A DNA stretch of 64,000 bases from Ornatilinea apprima (lineage in GTDB: Bacteria; Chloroflexota; Anaerolineae; Anaerolineales; Anaerolineaceae). Of this stretch, positions 13,724-18,271 are shown piece after piece. Location of the stretch: contig NZ_LGCL01000021.1 of assembly GCF_001306115.1 (NCBI RefSeq), positions 1 through 64,000 on the forward strand, written 5' to 3'. Every line of letters begins with the position of its first letter. Position 1 is the stretch's first letter. The notes under the pieces were generated by a model that was not told where the DNA came from, made no database searches, and saw nothing but the letters and a program-made list of their open reading frames with translations. A program made the position numbers and the translations under genes.

Positions 13724-14380
13724 TTAATGTTCGGCTCCAGCTTGGGAGCCGGGGTACAGCTCGTCGCGATTGGTGCCCAGCATGCCCGACTGCATGGATC
13801 GTTCATCGAGCAAGTTGAGTTGAATGGGCAAATCCGGCAGCACCGGGACCATTTTGCGGAGGTAAAAGGCGCGCGCCAGGCGGGCAACAGCGGTCTCGTC
13901 GGTAAGCCAGTCCATGGGGTAAGGACTGGAAATGCGCATCGGGCGAGTGTACCCGCGCAGGGTCTTCTGGCCGTGCTCGTTGAAAAAGACCTCAAAGTAA
14001 GACATGACCAGCTCGCGCAGGCCGCGGAAAACCGGCTCGCGAAAGCGCAGGCCAGAAAAGTTGGATTTGGCGACGGCGCCGAAAAGTCCGTTCTGCTGGA
14101 AAATAGCCAGCATATGATCATCATCGGTACCCGGTTCGGGCACTAAATCCAAAATAAGGGCGGGAAATCCAATGCGGTGCAGGGCGGCGGCGGCAAACAG
14201 CCCGCCGTCAAGGCAGTGCGACTGGTTGTCGCGCAGGACATTGAGTGGAGAGCGGTCACGCTCTTCTCGGCGGTAGGGAATCTGGTCAAGATACTGCTGG
14301 ATGCGGTATGGCGTGTCCAGACTGTTCCATAGATTCAGTTGTTCGGCAGTCAGTTGGGCTTCAAAATGGGCGAGGTTCAT
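13724..14380 (-). CDS. Transglutaminase-like protein coupled to AcnX, unknown function
   Basis: The 218-residue soluble protein resembles the transglutaminase/cysteine-protease core. Cys56 lies in SHCLDGGLFAAAALHRIGFP, a helix typical of the nucleophile, and His89 in DDDHMLAIFQQNG. The usual third-residue Asp strand is not obvious (AVAKSNF). ATG 14380 is chosen because it overlaps the preceding stop by one base (TGATG) and has GGAG about 8 nt upstream on the minus strand. An in-frame ATG at 14401 would overlap the small AcnX gene. It is the last gene of the AcnX/UbiD unit, so translational coupling suggests a related role, which I cannot name. Confidence 0.65.
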   Translation of the reverse strand: MNLAHFEAQLTAEQLNLWNSLDTPYRIQQYLDQIPYRREERDRSPLNVLRDNQSHCLDGGLFAAAALHRIGFPALILDLVPEPGTDDDHMLAIFQQNGLFGAVAKSNFSGLRFREPVFRGLRELVMSYFEVFFNEHGQKTLRGYTRPMRISSPYPMDWLTDETAVARLARAFYLRKMVPVLPDLPIQLNLLDERSMQSGMLGTNRDELYPGSQAGAEH

Positions 14381-14796
14381 CAGGTAGTCTCCTGCAAGCA
14401 AGGGGATTGGGTAATGGTAACGATGCCCTCGTCGGCGTTGACCGCAACCTGCATGCCGGTTTGGATTTGATCAATGGCGAGTAGATCGACACAGGGGATG
14501 TCCGAAATGATGCAGCCGACGGCGGTGATGGTTTCACATTCGCGGTTCAGGATGGCGCAGGGGGCCAGCCCGTTGGCTTTTAGGCGGTAAAGCGTATAAG
14601 AACCCACCGTTGAGCCTTTGCCGGTGGGAAACACGAGCACTTTCCCGGCGATGGACTGGCCGTATAAATCGTGGCCGGTTTCGGTAACCAGGCCGGTTTC
14701 CGGGTCTACCCCGCCGAAAAAGGAGATGCCCATCTGCGATACCAGCGCGGACCCTTGCGCCTGGCCGTTGGAAATGGTTCTGCCGGTAAGGTTCAT
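14380..14796 (-). CDS. Aconitase X small (swivel) subunit; phosphomevalonate dehydratase-like
   Basis: This 138-residue DUF126/AcnX swivel-domain protein carries the conserved FPTGKGSTVGSY loop, in which Ser62 is the expected catalytic residue. In archaea the two-subunit enzyme dehydrates (R)-5-phosphomevalonate; bacterial AcnX relatives, often fused, act on cis-3-hydroxyproline. Here it is a separate subunit, as in archaea. Its start overlaps the large-subunit stop by 4 nt, so expression is coupled. Family assignment is strong; the substrate is inferred only from the UbiD neighbour. Confidence 0.88.
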   Translation of the reverse strand: MNLTGRTISNGQAQGSALVSQMGISFFGGVDPETGLVTETGHDLYGQSIAGKVLVFPTGKGSTVGSYTLYRLKANGLAPCAILNRECETITAVGCIISDIPCVDLLAIDQIQTGMQVAVNADEGIVTITQSPCLQETT

Positions 14797-15989
14797 CGGG
14801 TGGCCTCGTTGACAACTTCTTCAAAGGAGCGGTAGAGGGTATTGAATTTGTTTTTTCCACGCGCGTAATAACAGGCTTTGGCGCTGTCGGTGAGCAGAGT
14901 TTTGAAGCGGCCCTGAATGGGCGCGACCACACAGCAGGTGTCGGCAGCGAATTTCGCGCCGGCTTGTTCAATGATACGAGTGTACCCCATGCGGTCGGCC
15001 ATTTGCTTGATGGGCCGGGCGGTGGTGATCCAGAATTCTTTGCGCACCTGGCGGCCGACGAGCAGCTGTGCCAGATGGGCAATTTCGTCAATGGACAGGT
15101 GCGGGCAGCCCAGGCTAATAAAATCGGGCTCATCAGCGGCGTTGGAGAGATGCTCAATCGCCTGATGGATCTGTTGGGATGAAATGGTTATGGATTCAGC
15201 CGGAACGGCAAAGAGCGAGGCTTCGGGCGTTACACCCTGAATGTGGAATAAACCTGCTCCACCGTAGGTGGCGATGCTGGCGCAGAAGGATTTGAGCTCT
15301 TCCAGGCTGGCCTGGGGGATGCCGGTGAGGTATGGCACCGGGCGGGTAGCGCGTTTTTCGATGATTTCACCGATCACTTTGCCCAACGCGCCAAATTGAA
15401 AGGTGCCAGAGAGCGGCGCTTCCACGTGGAAGTGCAGCCGCGGCACGCGTTGTTCGTCAAGGTGCAGGCCGTACGCGGGGGAAAAGCCGGTCAGCGCGGA
15501 GGCCAGTGCCGATGGGCCGCCTTCGCGGTTGGTGCGCGCGCCGAGTACGGAATTGGCAAAACACACCGCGCTGCTCTCTGACCAGGCAATGTGCTGACCA
15601 TAGAGCGGCACGTTGCCCACCAGGTAGGGCGTGCAGGAGCAGGTGGCAACCACGCCCATGCGCGAGAAGGCCTCAATGACACGCGTCTGGTCTCGGGCAA
15701 ATTCGGGGCTGATGCCCAACGCCTGCCAGTTTTCAATGTCCATGCCCGCCGGGTTGAGGGTGGTAAGCACGCGGGTTTTGCCGCCGCCGTCCGCCATATC
15801 AGAAAGAAATGCCAGCCCCGCTTCGCCCAGGTTGGCATAGCTCACGCCGGCAATCTGCACGGATGTAACCGGGATCAGTTCTTCGGCGCCGTAGATTTTG
15901 CCCAGAGCGGCGAGAATCTGCATGCTTTTTTGAGCGGCGCGGCCGTGTGCGCCATCGAGCATGGCGGTTTGGAGTGGCGTCAGGTTCAT
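14793..15989 (-). CDS. Aconitase X large (catalytic) subunit; phosphomevalonate dehydratase-like
   Basis: The 398-residue AcnX catalytic subunit should hold an iron-sulfur cluster. Candidate ligands are Cys117/Cys119 (TCSCTPY), Cys295 (SLGCPHLS) and Cys352/Cys353 (DTCCVV), matching the family pattern of three spaced Cys. Length fits stand-alone large subunits. The gene overlaps both neighbours by 4 nt: the UbiD-like gene before it and the small subunit after it. A dehydratase followed by a decarboxylase matches the archaeal mevalonate steps phosphomevalonate to trans-anhydromevalonate phosphate to isopentenyl phosphate. Hydroxyproline dehydration is the main alternative, but no proline genes are nearby. 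Confidence 0.9.
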   Translation of the reverse strand: MNLTPLQTAMLDGAHGRAAQKSMQILAALGKIYGAEELIPVTSVQIAGVSYANLGEAGLAFLSDMADGGGKTRVLTTLNPAGMDIENWQALGISPEFARDQTRVIEAFSRMGVVATCSCTPYLVGNVPLYGQHIAWSESSAVCFANSVLGARTNREGGPSALASALTGFSPAYGLHLDEQRVPRLHFHVEAPLSGTFQFGALGKVIGEIIEKRATRPVPYLTGIPQASLEELKSFCASIATYGGAGLFHIQGVTPEASLFAVPAESITISSQQIHQAIEHLSNAADEPDFISLGCPHLSIDEIAHLAQLLVGRQVRKEFWITTARPIKQMADRMGYTRIIEQAGAKFAADTCCVVAPIQGRFKTLLTDSAKACYYARGKNKFNTLYRSFEEVVNEATR

Positions 15990-17296
15990 TGGGTGTCCTT
16001 CACAAACTGATTCAGGTCGACTTGCGGAAAAGCAGCCCGGTCAAAGGATTTGCCTTGCGTCTCCAGCGGTTTGGTGAGGTCAAAGCCGACGCGGGTGGTG
16101 TTCTTGGTGCCCGGTTCGGCGCTGGGGTCGAGGCTGGAGCCGGGAGAGGGTGGTTTGATGATCAGATCACGGTCGCCCTGAAAGCGGGTCGCCATAGCCC
16201 ATTCCACTTCCAGGGGATTGTAGATGTCAATATCGCTGTCGACGACAAAAACATGCTTGCAGGAGGTGTGCCCAGCAAAAGCGGCTTCAATGGCTTTCCT
16301 GCCGTCATCTTCGTGCTGTTTGTCGATCTGGACGATGGCGTGCAGCCAGGAGGTGCCACCGGGGCTGATGTTGACATCCAGGCAGCGGGCAACCTGGTTG
16401 ACTTTGCGGAAGATGGTTGGCTCGCGGGGCATGCCCATGAGCAGTTTGTGTTCCAGTGCGCCGGGCAAAAGGGCGTGCCAAATGGCATCCCGCCGGTGGG
16501 TGATGGCTTTTACTTCCAGCACCGGCTGCTGGCGGACGATGTCATACGTTTCGGTGAGATCGACAAACGGCCCTTCTTCACGCAGGCGGTCAAGGTGGAC
16601 GGTGCCTTCAATCACGAATTCGCATTCCGCTGGCACCCAAACATCCACCGTTTTGGCTTTGACTACCTGGAGCGGTTCGAGGGCATTGGCAATTTCCAGC
16701 TCATCTACACCCAATTCAACAGAAGTGGCGGCAGCGGCCAGCACATTGGGGGCGTTGCCTATGCAGATGGCCACGTCCAGGTCGCGCAGGTCTTCCAGAA
16801 AGGCGTCAAAATGGCGGGACTTAACCACGCGCACCGACATCTCGGTTTTTGAAAGCTGCATGCAGCGGTGAAAATCCAGGTTTTGGCCGTATTGGGGGTG
16901 GCGAGTGACGAAGACACCTGAGCTGATGTAATTGCCGCCGTCTTTTTCGCAGTGTCTCAAAATGGGCAGCTCATCCAGGTCGGGGGAGAGGTTGACCACT
17001 TCCTGGCAAGGGGCTGCGCTGACGCGCTCGCAGGCAGAGCGATTTTCAATCGCGCCAGCCAGCAGCGGAATGATCTGATGGACTGGAACGCCGAAATAGC
17101 TGGCAAAACTGGCTTTGGAACAGAACAGGTTGCCCATTACCGGGAACTTTGATTCGATGACGTGGGAAAAAATAGCCGGGCGCGGCTCAATTTGCTTGAG
17201 CACCCCGGCTATCTGGTAGGTTTTGGAAATGGGCGCGCTCACTTCGAGAATGCGCGCCTCAGATTTTAGATTTTGGAGATGCGTGCGTAAGGTCAT
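15986..17296 (-). CDS. UbiD-family decarboxylase; anhydromevalonate phosphate decarboxylase-like
   Basis: The 436-residue UbiD-fold enzyme is expected to need prenylated FMN made by UbiX, which is absent from the window. Family marks include CQEVV, the Arg/Asn-rich FMN region around QLSKTEMSVRVV, the acidic EGPFVDLTETYD segment (catalytic Glu region), and the metal/cofactor stretch VVDSDIDIYNPLEVEWAMATR. The compact length is closer to archaeal anhydromevalonate phosphate decarboxylase than to longer aromatic decarboxylases. It lies 12 nt after brkB and overlaps acnX large by 4 nt. The decarboxylase family is clear; the substrate is inferred from context. Confidence 0.88.
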   Translation of the reverse strand: MTLRTHLQNLKSEARILEVSAPISKTYQIAGVLKQIEPRPAIFSHVIESKFPVMGNLFCSKASFASYFGVPVHQIIPLLAGAIENRSACERVSAAPCQEVVNLSPDLDELPILRHCEKDGGNYISSGVFVTRHPQYGQNLDFHRCMQLSKTEMSVRVVKSRHFDAFLEDLRDLDVAICIGNAPNVLAAAATSVELGVDELEIANALEPLQVVKAKTVDVWVPAECEFVIEGTVHLDRLREEGPFVDLTETYDIVRQQPVLEVKAITHRRDAIWHALLPGALEHKLLMGMPREPTIFRKVNQVARCLDVNISPGGTSWLHAIVQIDKQHEDDGRKAIEAAFAGHTSCKHVFVVDSDIDIYNPLEVEWAMATRFQGDRDLIIKPPSPGSSLDPSAEPGTKNTTRVGFDLTKPLETQGKSFDRAAFPQVDLNQFVKDTQ

Positions 17297-17308: not shown

Positions 17309-18271
17309 TTATTCTGATTCGTCGTCTTCATCAAAGTTTACCATGCTGGAGCGGGTAATGTTGTCTTTTCTGGTCAATCGGGCGATGGCCGCGCTGAGAT
17401 GATTGCCAAAGACCAGAATGTAGTTGCCAAAATAAAACCACAGCATAAGGGTGATGGTGCGCCCTAGCGAGCCGTAAACCAAGTCGTAATGGGCAAAGCC
17501 GCTGTTGAGATACCAGGTGAAGGCATTGTTGAGCAGCCACCAGCTCACGGATACAAATACCGCCCCCGCCAGGGCAGAAAGGCGCGGAATCTGGGTGTTG
17601 GGAACCCAATAATAAAGCGACCACAACAAGGCCAGGCGCACAATCTGAGGCAAAAACTGCGATAGGAAAGACCGTAAGGTAGTTTGGGCCAAAAACTCCC
17701 GCCACAGGGGAAAGTTGATCTTATTGAGCATTTCAAACCCGGTGGTTGAGAGGATGGATACGAGGAACAGGGAACCCAGCACCAGAACAATGGAAAGCGC
17801 CTGCAGGCGGGTCTTTACGAAATGGCGGGGTTTCATGCCGATCCAGGGGCGGTTGATATTGCGTACCAATAAGTTGAAAAATCCGGAGGATGACCAGACC
17901 AAACTGCCCAGGCTGATGAGGGTAAACGCCCCGCGGCGATGAACGACTTCTTTAATGACATTAAAGATCAGATCTTGGGAAATGGGGATGATTTCGGAAA
18001 TATACTCGATGACGCGCTGTTGGGCGGTTTGAGCGGTGAGCCAGTTGCTGGCAACCGCGATCAGCAGCAGCGCCAGGGGAAAAATGGAGAATAAGGAATA
18101 ATAGGCCAGACTGGCGGTCGTCTCGCCAGACATGGTGATATTAAAACTGCGGTAAGCGGTGCGCAGCACGAGGAAAAGGGAGCCCAATCCTTTTTTGGTA
18201 AGGCGGTAAGCATCCTCCAGGGTGGAAAGGATATGAGCGGTTTTGATTGCGTTCAAACTTTTCATGGGCAT
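17309..18271 (-). CDS. YihY/BrkB-family inner membrane protein
   Basis: The 320-residue membrane protein has about six hydrophobic segments. It carries the YihY/BrkB signature: an amphipathic start, then MSGETTASLAYYSLFSIFPLALLLIAVAS, and later GSLVWSSSGFF and YGSLGRTITLMLWFYFGNYILVFG. The tail is short and acidic. Family members are often annotated as virulence factor or 'RNase BN', but no nuclease activity is supported. It sits 32 nt after chrA and 12 nt before the UbiD gene in the same orientation, inside the seven-gene run. Confidence 0.88.
   Translation of the reverse strand: MPMKSLNAIKTAHILSTLEDAYRLTKKGLGSLFLVLRTAYRSFNITMSGETTASLAYYSLFSIFPLALLLIAVASNWLTAQTAQQRVIEYISEIIPISQDLIFNVIKEVVHRRGAFTLISLGSLVWSSSGFFNLLVRNINRPWIGMKPRHFVKTRLQALSIVLVLGSLFLVSILSTTGFEMLNKINFPLWREFLAQTTLRSFLSQFLPQIVRLALLWSLYYWVPNTQIPRLSALAGAVFVSVSWWLLNNAFTWYLNSGFAHYDLVYGSLGRTITLMLWFYFGNYILVFGNHLSAAIARLTRKDNITRSSMVNFDEDDESE

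Follow-up and report, generated by a model that had tools for sequence, protein, structure and literature searches.

In the modified mevalonate pathway of archaea such as Aeropyrum pernix, phosphomevalonate dehydratase (PMDh) and anhydromevalonate phosphate decarboxylase (AMPD) lead to isopentenyl phosphate; the literature presents this lower branch as an archaeal speciality (PMC10040528), and the A. pernix enzymes serve here for comparison. For Roseiflexus and Anaerolinea an alternative pathway is described in which an ATP-dependent phosphomevalonate decarboxylase (MPD) and isopentenyl phosphate kinase (IPK) take part (PMC3857490; PMC9254496). An archaeal mevalonate pathway in a Chloroflexota bacterium is attributed to Kanno et al. 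2024 (AEM 90:e0110624), as cited in PMC13001223, and archaeal-type and decarboxylase-type genes are known to occur together in Asgard genomes (PMC11052028). We analyzed a stretch of 64,000 nt from Ornatilinea apprima (contig NZ_LGCL01000021.1, positions 1 to 64,000; below, the window), which contains a UbiD-family gene followed by genes for the large and small subunits of an AcnX (Table 1). Very probably, this set encodes an archaeal-type lower mevalonate branch that was derived from archaea and is kept beside a resident MPD; the gene content, gene order, residue conservation, phylogeny and co-occurrence on which we base this were established directly.

Like A. pernix, O. apprima has a two-subunit type IIb AcnX with three Cys ligands, a UbiD partner, UbiX, IPK and mevalonate kinase (MVK). 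Unlike in the archaeal pathway, the host is a bacterium, the same product is expected also via MPD, and the set lies on the contig of the MVK and IPK genes, not adjacent to them. With Roseiflexus and Anaerolinea it shares MPD, as a close homologue of the Anaerolinea enzyme, and IPK, with no GHMP-type phosphomevalonate kinase (PMK) found, whereas the archaeal-type dehydratase/decarboxylase set is an addition of the window genome.

Pfam scores of UbiD and of the AcnX pair were far above cut-off and far beyond chance. The large AcnX subunit matched PF04412 with 487.6 bits (E=3.2e-146), the small subunit matched the swivel domain PF01989 (E=9.5e-36) and PRK03955 (173.9 bits, cut-off 163), and UbiD reached 347.6 bits with TIGR00148 (cut-off 244.85). 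The best PDB matches of the large and small subunits were AcnX of Thermococcus kodakarensis (TkAcnX; 7cnr/7cns, E=9.6e-93) and its other chain 7cnr_B (E=1.2e-42), respectively; the closest solved structure for UbiD was 6h6v, another UbiD-family decarboxylase. TkAcnX was solved in complex with mevalonate 5-phosphate (MVA5P), and the ligand residues were defined there (PMC8184944). Since the window AcnX is ~42% identical to the protein in this complex, its fold is already fixed. As in PMDh, large and small subunits are encoded by separate tandem genes, and the successive 4-nt overlaps of the three genes claimed by the original prediction were borne out by the calls of open reading frames (ORFs) and by the ATGA junctions.

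All MVA5P contacts of the TkAcnX large subunit were kept in the window protein. The phosphate contacts Gly48, Val49, Ser50, Asn53 and Asn79 are identical (G48, V49, S50, N53, N79), and the carboxylate/hydroxyl contacts Glu129, Ser130, Ser131, Lys361 and Tyr365 correspond to E138, S139, S140, K371 and Y375. Also the three cluster ligands Cys110, Cys283 and Cys342 of TkAcnX are represented, by C119, C295 and C352, and the small subunit retains Ser62, Thr63 and Val64 of the GSTVGS motif. The earlier statement that AcnX keeps its Cys and Ser motifs was right, as the three Cys and the Ser/Thr of GSTVGS align with the TkAcnX ligands. In UbiD, R144, E241 and D246 (the Arg and the EGPFxD motif), which by comparison with Fdc1/UbiD we take to be the catalytic triad, were invariant in 59/59 bacterial and archaeal homologues compared (groups A and B, see below, and archaea). 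Both the UbiD domains and the E-R-D/E residues expected of AMPD were thus found.

The assembly (4.34 Mb in 45 contigs, 98.8% complete, contamination estimate 8.7%) was searched family by family for isoprenoid genes. One gene for 3-hydroxy-3-methylglutaryl-CoA reductase (HMGR) is located on contig C20, adjoined by genes for an archaeal-type 3-hydroxy-3-methylglutaryl-CoA synthase (HMGS) and a thiolase. The MVK and IPK genes (C3:89060-90830) are separated by 16 nt and share their 163-kb contig with the window set. The UbiD of the window is the only one in the genome, and a single UbiX that could provide prenylated FMN (prFMN) was found on contig C1 (~142.2-142.8 kb); it shares 61-73% identity with the UbiX proteins that other group-A sets encode. 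For the methylerythritol phosphate (MEP) pathway the search covered IspG, and IspE via the GHMP proteins. IspG was not found in the genome search, and the five GHMP proteins of the genome (MVK, ThrB, GalK, an HddA-like kinase and MPD) included neither IspE nor PMK. Altogether, HMGS, HMGR, MVK, the candidate PMDh and AMPD, and IPK were all present, and the MEP pathway was absent as far as IspG and IspE tell. The original prediction had named as speaking against it a complete MEP pathway without MVK or IPK, or enzymes of non-mevalonate clades; since HMGS, HMGR, MVK, IPK and UbiX were present and IspG and IspE absent, this is not the situation in O. apprima. Directly upstream of the MVK-IPK pair, a UbiA-family gene resembling decaprenyl-phosphate phosphoribosyltransferase was observed (C3:90841-91716, L016:8841-9716).

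The fifth GHMP protein matched 6n0x with E=6e-123; 6n0x is the phosphomevalonate decarboxylase of Anaerolinea thermophila, MPD being ATP-dependent (PMC9254496). The protein shares with 6n0x the Asn of YWGN, at which position diphosphomevalonate decarboxylases carry Lys (Lys21 in the table of PMC3857490). Because of this MPD homologue, two predicted routes from MVA5P to isopentenyl phosphate are encoded in one genome. MPD was found in 37/37 sampled genomes of the order and IPK in all of them; the idea of MPD as a contaminant was dropped, since every sampled genome of the order carries it.

With the reactions taken from the characterized archaeal enzymes (PMC10040528), we infer that the AcnX large and small subunits would form a [4Fe-4S] PMDh converting (R)-mevalonate 5-phosphate to trans-anhydromevalonate 5-phosphate, from which UbiD, using prenylated FMN from the genome's UbiX, would produce isopentenyl phosphate and CO2. 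IPK would then yield isopentenyl diphosphate. The resident MPD would perform the same net conversion in an ATP-dependent manner, and both routes may be in use. The original prediction that isopentenyl phosphate may be made by the archaeal route is supported by the clades of both enzymes, the MVA5P-contact residues and the gene content of the genome, although with MPD encoded this would not be the only route. Labour is perhaps divided between an ATP-saving, oxygen-sensitive set and an oxygen-robust MPD. The decarboxylation by the archaeal route would cost no ATP, and PMDh of A. pernix is inactivated in air (PMC10040528); a condition-dependent division between the set and MPD appears plausible.

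In a scan of named genomes, AcnX proteins 55-62% identical to that of the window were found, besides those of other Chloroflexota, in Lokiarchaeia, Hermod-, Hod- and Thorarchaeota, Bathyarchaeota, Diapherotrites and Aenigmatarchaeota. Archaeal relatives at ~62-65% identity to the window genes were located in HMGS-HMGR-UbiD-AcnXL-AcnXS-MVK-IPK clusters, in a Lokiarchaeia example with UbiX following IPK. The UbiD homologues of the class were split by their identity to the window protein into two groups. Group A, to which the window UbiD belongs, covers 16 genomes at 65-76%; group B covers 125 genomes at 43-61%, most of them at <52%. Trees were made without the characterized PMDh and AMPD of A. 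pernix, and the careful AcnX tree omits long-branch rows (the long AcnX of family f38, L054, L002 and type I). In the AcnX tree, group A formed one clade (100/98) nested in archaea (within 98/95), and in the UbiD tree one clade (100/99) inside a 100/100 clade with Asgard/DPANN archaea; group B stood apart in both. Joining groups A and B on the AcnX tree was rejected by the approximately unbiased test (p-AU 0.0025). In the phylogeny proposed earlier as a check, AcnX thus fell within the clade of archaeal PMDh, and UbiD within the AMPD clade, together with UbiDs of archaeal mevalonate clusters. Because the AcnX and UbiD trees agree, they fit a transfer in which archaea close to the Asgard/DPANN PMDh lineage passed the set to Chloroflexota, presumably with later patchy spread. 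The nesting speaks against a transfer from Chloroflexota to archaea, though this depends on the rooting.

We sampled 396 genomes of the class. IPK was found in 335 and IspG in 5 of these, MPD was above cut-off in 202, AcnX in 168, and 141 genomes encode a UbiD closely related to that of the window. A strong MPD was detected in 12/125 group-B genomes, with no MPD match whatsoever in 111, compared with 179/255 UbiD-negative genomes (Fisher p=4e-31) and 13/16 group-A genomes (A versus B, p=3e-9); because the genomes are related these p-values overstate the evidence, the contrast itself being large. This suggests that group B largely replaces MPD, whereas group A usually accompanies it. The initial hypothesis that MPD and AcnX/UbiD simply exclude each other across the class was therefore discarded, being broadly true of group B and failing for group A. 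Gene order is often UbiD-AcnXL-AcnXS-IPK in group B and UbiD-AcnXL-AcnXS(-UbiX) in group A, in L100, L103 and L186 directly beside a divergent MPD. In G164, too, the set and MPD are divergent neighbours.

Some deviating cases were seen as well. In certain group-B genomes (family f38; L177:7520-9310, L082:2959-4305) UbiD is instead located beside a long AcnX, ~36% identical to that of the window. This long AcnX (~596 aa in L177) mixes PMDh-like and hydroxyproline-dehydratase-like residues and may be a fused AcnX partner or a different one. MPD, window-type UbiD and IspG were all undetected in 40 class genomes, many of them incomplete, of which some may hold another lower branch. Families f7 and f39 gave weak MPD-family matches (E ~1e-30) that may represent a different decarboxylase or kinase subfamily.

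Several observations weigh against the window set being a functional archaeal lower branch. Since O. apprima has MPD, as do the 37 genomes sampled from its order without exception, the set is dispensable for isopentenyl phosphate; it is patchy, occurring in 2/11 sampled genomes of the family; and residue 27 of the small subunit is Phe, compared with Leu in TkAcnX. Phe or Tyr is usual at this position in Asgard-related and group-A proteins and in nearly all archaeal members compared. The patchiness, together with MPD alongside the set in 13/16 group-A genomes, would also suit a true PMDh and AMPD of minor importance, with MPD carrying the flux and the set being a neutral or transient acquisition. 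We regard this as unlikely, while leaving it a real chance: the three overlapping genes are intact and their active sites completely conserved, the genome retains a single UbiX and a single UbiD, and group A is a diverse clade, its UbiDs being 65-76% identical to that of the window, and spread over many genera. An archaeal lower branch working beside MPD is preferred. Its fuller version, in which Asgard/DPANN-like archaea were the source of the branch in an event separate from the reported Chloroflexota case and the branch was retained parallel to MPD, as two exchangeable, possibly condition-switched routes differing in ATP cost and oxygen tolerance, is put forward tentatively and could nearly as well hold as fail.

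As a further alternative, the pair may be a dehydratase and decarboxylase for another 3-hydroxy acid, with isopentenyl phosphate made by MPD alone. Relatives that lack the set apparently manage with MPD, and there are further AcnX subfamilies of unknown function (PMC10040528), one of them in the same genome (L002). Against this, the window AcnX groups with archaeal PMDh from mevalonate clusters and has PMDh residues where hydroxyproline dehydratase differs: Ala47, Ser50 and a small-subunit Val stand in place of Asp, Ile and Thr, Val354 is found in addition, and the residues marking hydroxyproline dehydratase are absent. With the hydroxyproline dehydratase family model the window AcnX scored 290 bits, the cut-off being 700. 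The AcnX of structures 7cnp, 7cnq and 7d2r belongs to the same family but to another clade, and differs in substrate-contact residues and in the third Cys ligand. A different 3-hydroxy acid as substrate is thus distinctly improbable. A binning artefact that brought in the set or the mevalonate genes from contaminating DNA, as the contamination estimate of 8.7% might suggest, is already largely refuted and hardly credible, with the set and MVK-IPK on one 163-kb contig, MPD and IPK in every genome sampled from the order, and the set together with MPD in the low-contamination (1-2%) relatives G263, G164, G289 and G387.

The second two-gene AcnX set of the genome (L002:1501-3245; contig C42, ~157.9-159.6 kb) lies behind an FAD-dependent oxidoreductase-like gene. 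It was rejected as the PMDh of the genome: Gly48, Val49 and Asn79 are replaced by Val, Thr and Asp, and its branch is very long. Since several phosphate-binding residues of PMDh are missing and the divergence is strong, we treat it as an AcnX of unknown function.

To our knowledge, one bacterial case of the archaeal lower branch has been published. Candidatus Promineifilum breve (Chloroflexota) is reportedly the organism in which Kanno et al. 2024 found the archaeal mevalonate pathway. That bacterium resembles O. apprima in phylum and, as reported, in having an archaeal lower branch. The window clade is nested in archaea, whereas Ca. P. breve, with sequences outside our comparison, would be expected in the mostly MPD-lacking group. 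A limited search of the open-access literature returned no report of bacterial PMDh/AMPD beside MPD, or of a second archaeal-nested Chloroflexota lineage. The pathway in bacteria is thus already known; what is new is the lineage nested in archaea and the presence of two routes. Our data suggest that the archaeal lower branch is common in one bacterial class (141/396), as two separate gene lineages. The origin of bacterial mevalonate pathways becomes directly testable, as does the question of why an ATP-free, oxygen-sensitive route is kept beside an ATP-using one, and bacterial PMDh/AMPD genes become available for low-ATP isoprenoid production.

The set is flanked by genes for a BrkB-family membrane protein and a transglutaminase-like ORF (Table 1); the latter has a TTG start as called, and an internal ATG start is possible. 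Because BrkB ends 12 nt upstream of UbiD and the transglutaminase-like ORF overlaps the 3' end of the set, the proposed operon may extend to a five-gene transcript, with BrkB possibly co-transcribed. As pathway parts both were rejected, since in the flanks fetched neither was found beside other copies of the set; we think that BrkB and the transglutaminase-like ORF stand outside the pathway.

Table 1. Positions of the candidate PMDh/AMPD genes, their junctions and the flanking genes in the window
Feature	Positions	Strand	Basis
UbiD-family decarboxylase, 436 aa; proposed AMPD, prFMN-dependent	15986-17296	minus	ORF call, Pfam UbiD_N/UbiD/UbiD_C, TIGR00148, tree, residues
AcnX (type IIb), large subunit of the proposed PMDh, 398 aa	14793-15989	minus	PF04412, TkAcnX match, ligands, trees
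AcnX swivel protein, small subunit of the proposed PMDh, 138 aa	14380-14796	minus	PF01989, PRK03955, 7cnr_B, GSTVGS residues
ATGA overlap, 4 nt, UbiD stop / AcnX large start	15986-15989	minus	junction sequence
ATGA overlap, 4 nt, AcnX large stop / AcnX small start	14793-14796	minus	junction sequence
BrkB-family membrane protein, 3' end 12 nt upstream of UbiD	17309-18271	minus	PF03631
Transglutaminase-like ORF, 225 aa, 22-nt overlap with AcnX small 3' end	13724-14401	minus	ORF call, weak PF01841 (E=0.044)

Elsewhere in the genome, a protein of the [LysW]-aminoadipate kinase type (L010:1435-2253, contig C20; 390 bits) suggests LysW-dependent lysine or arginine synthesis.

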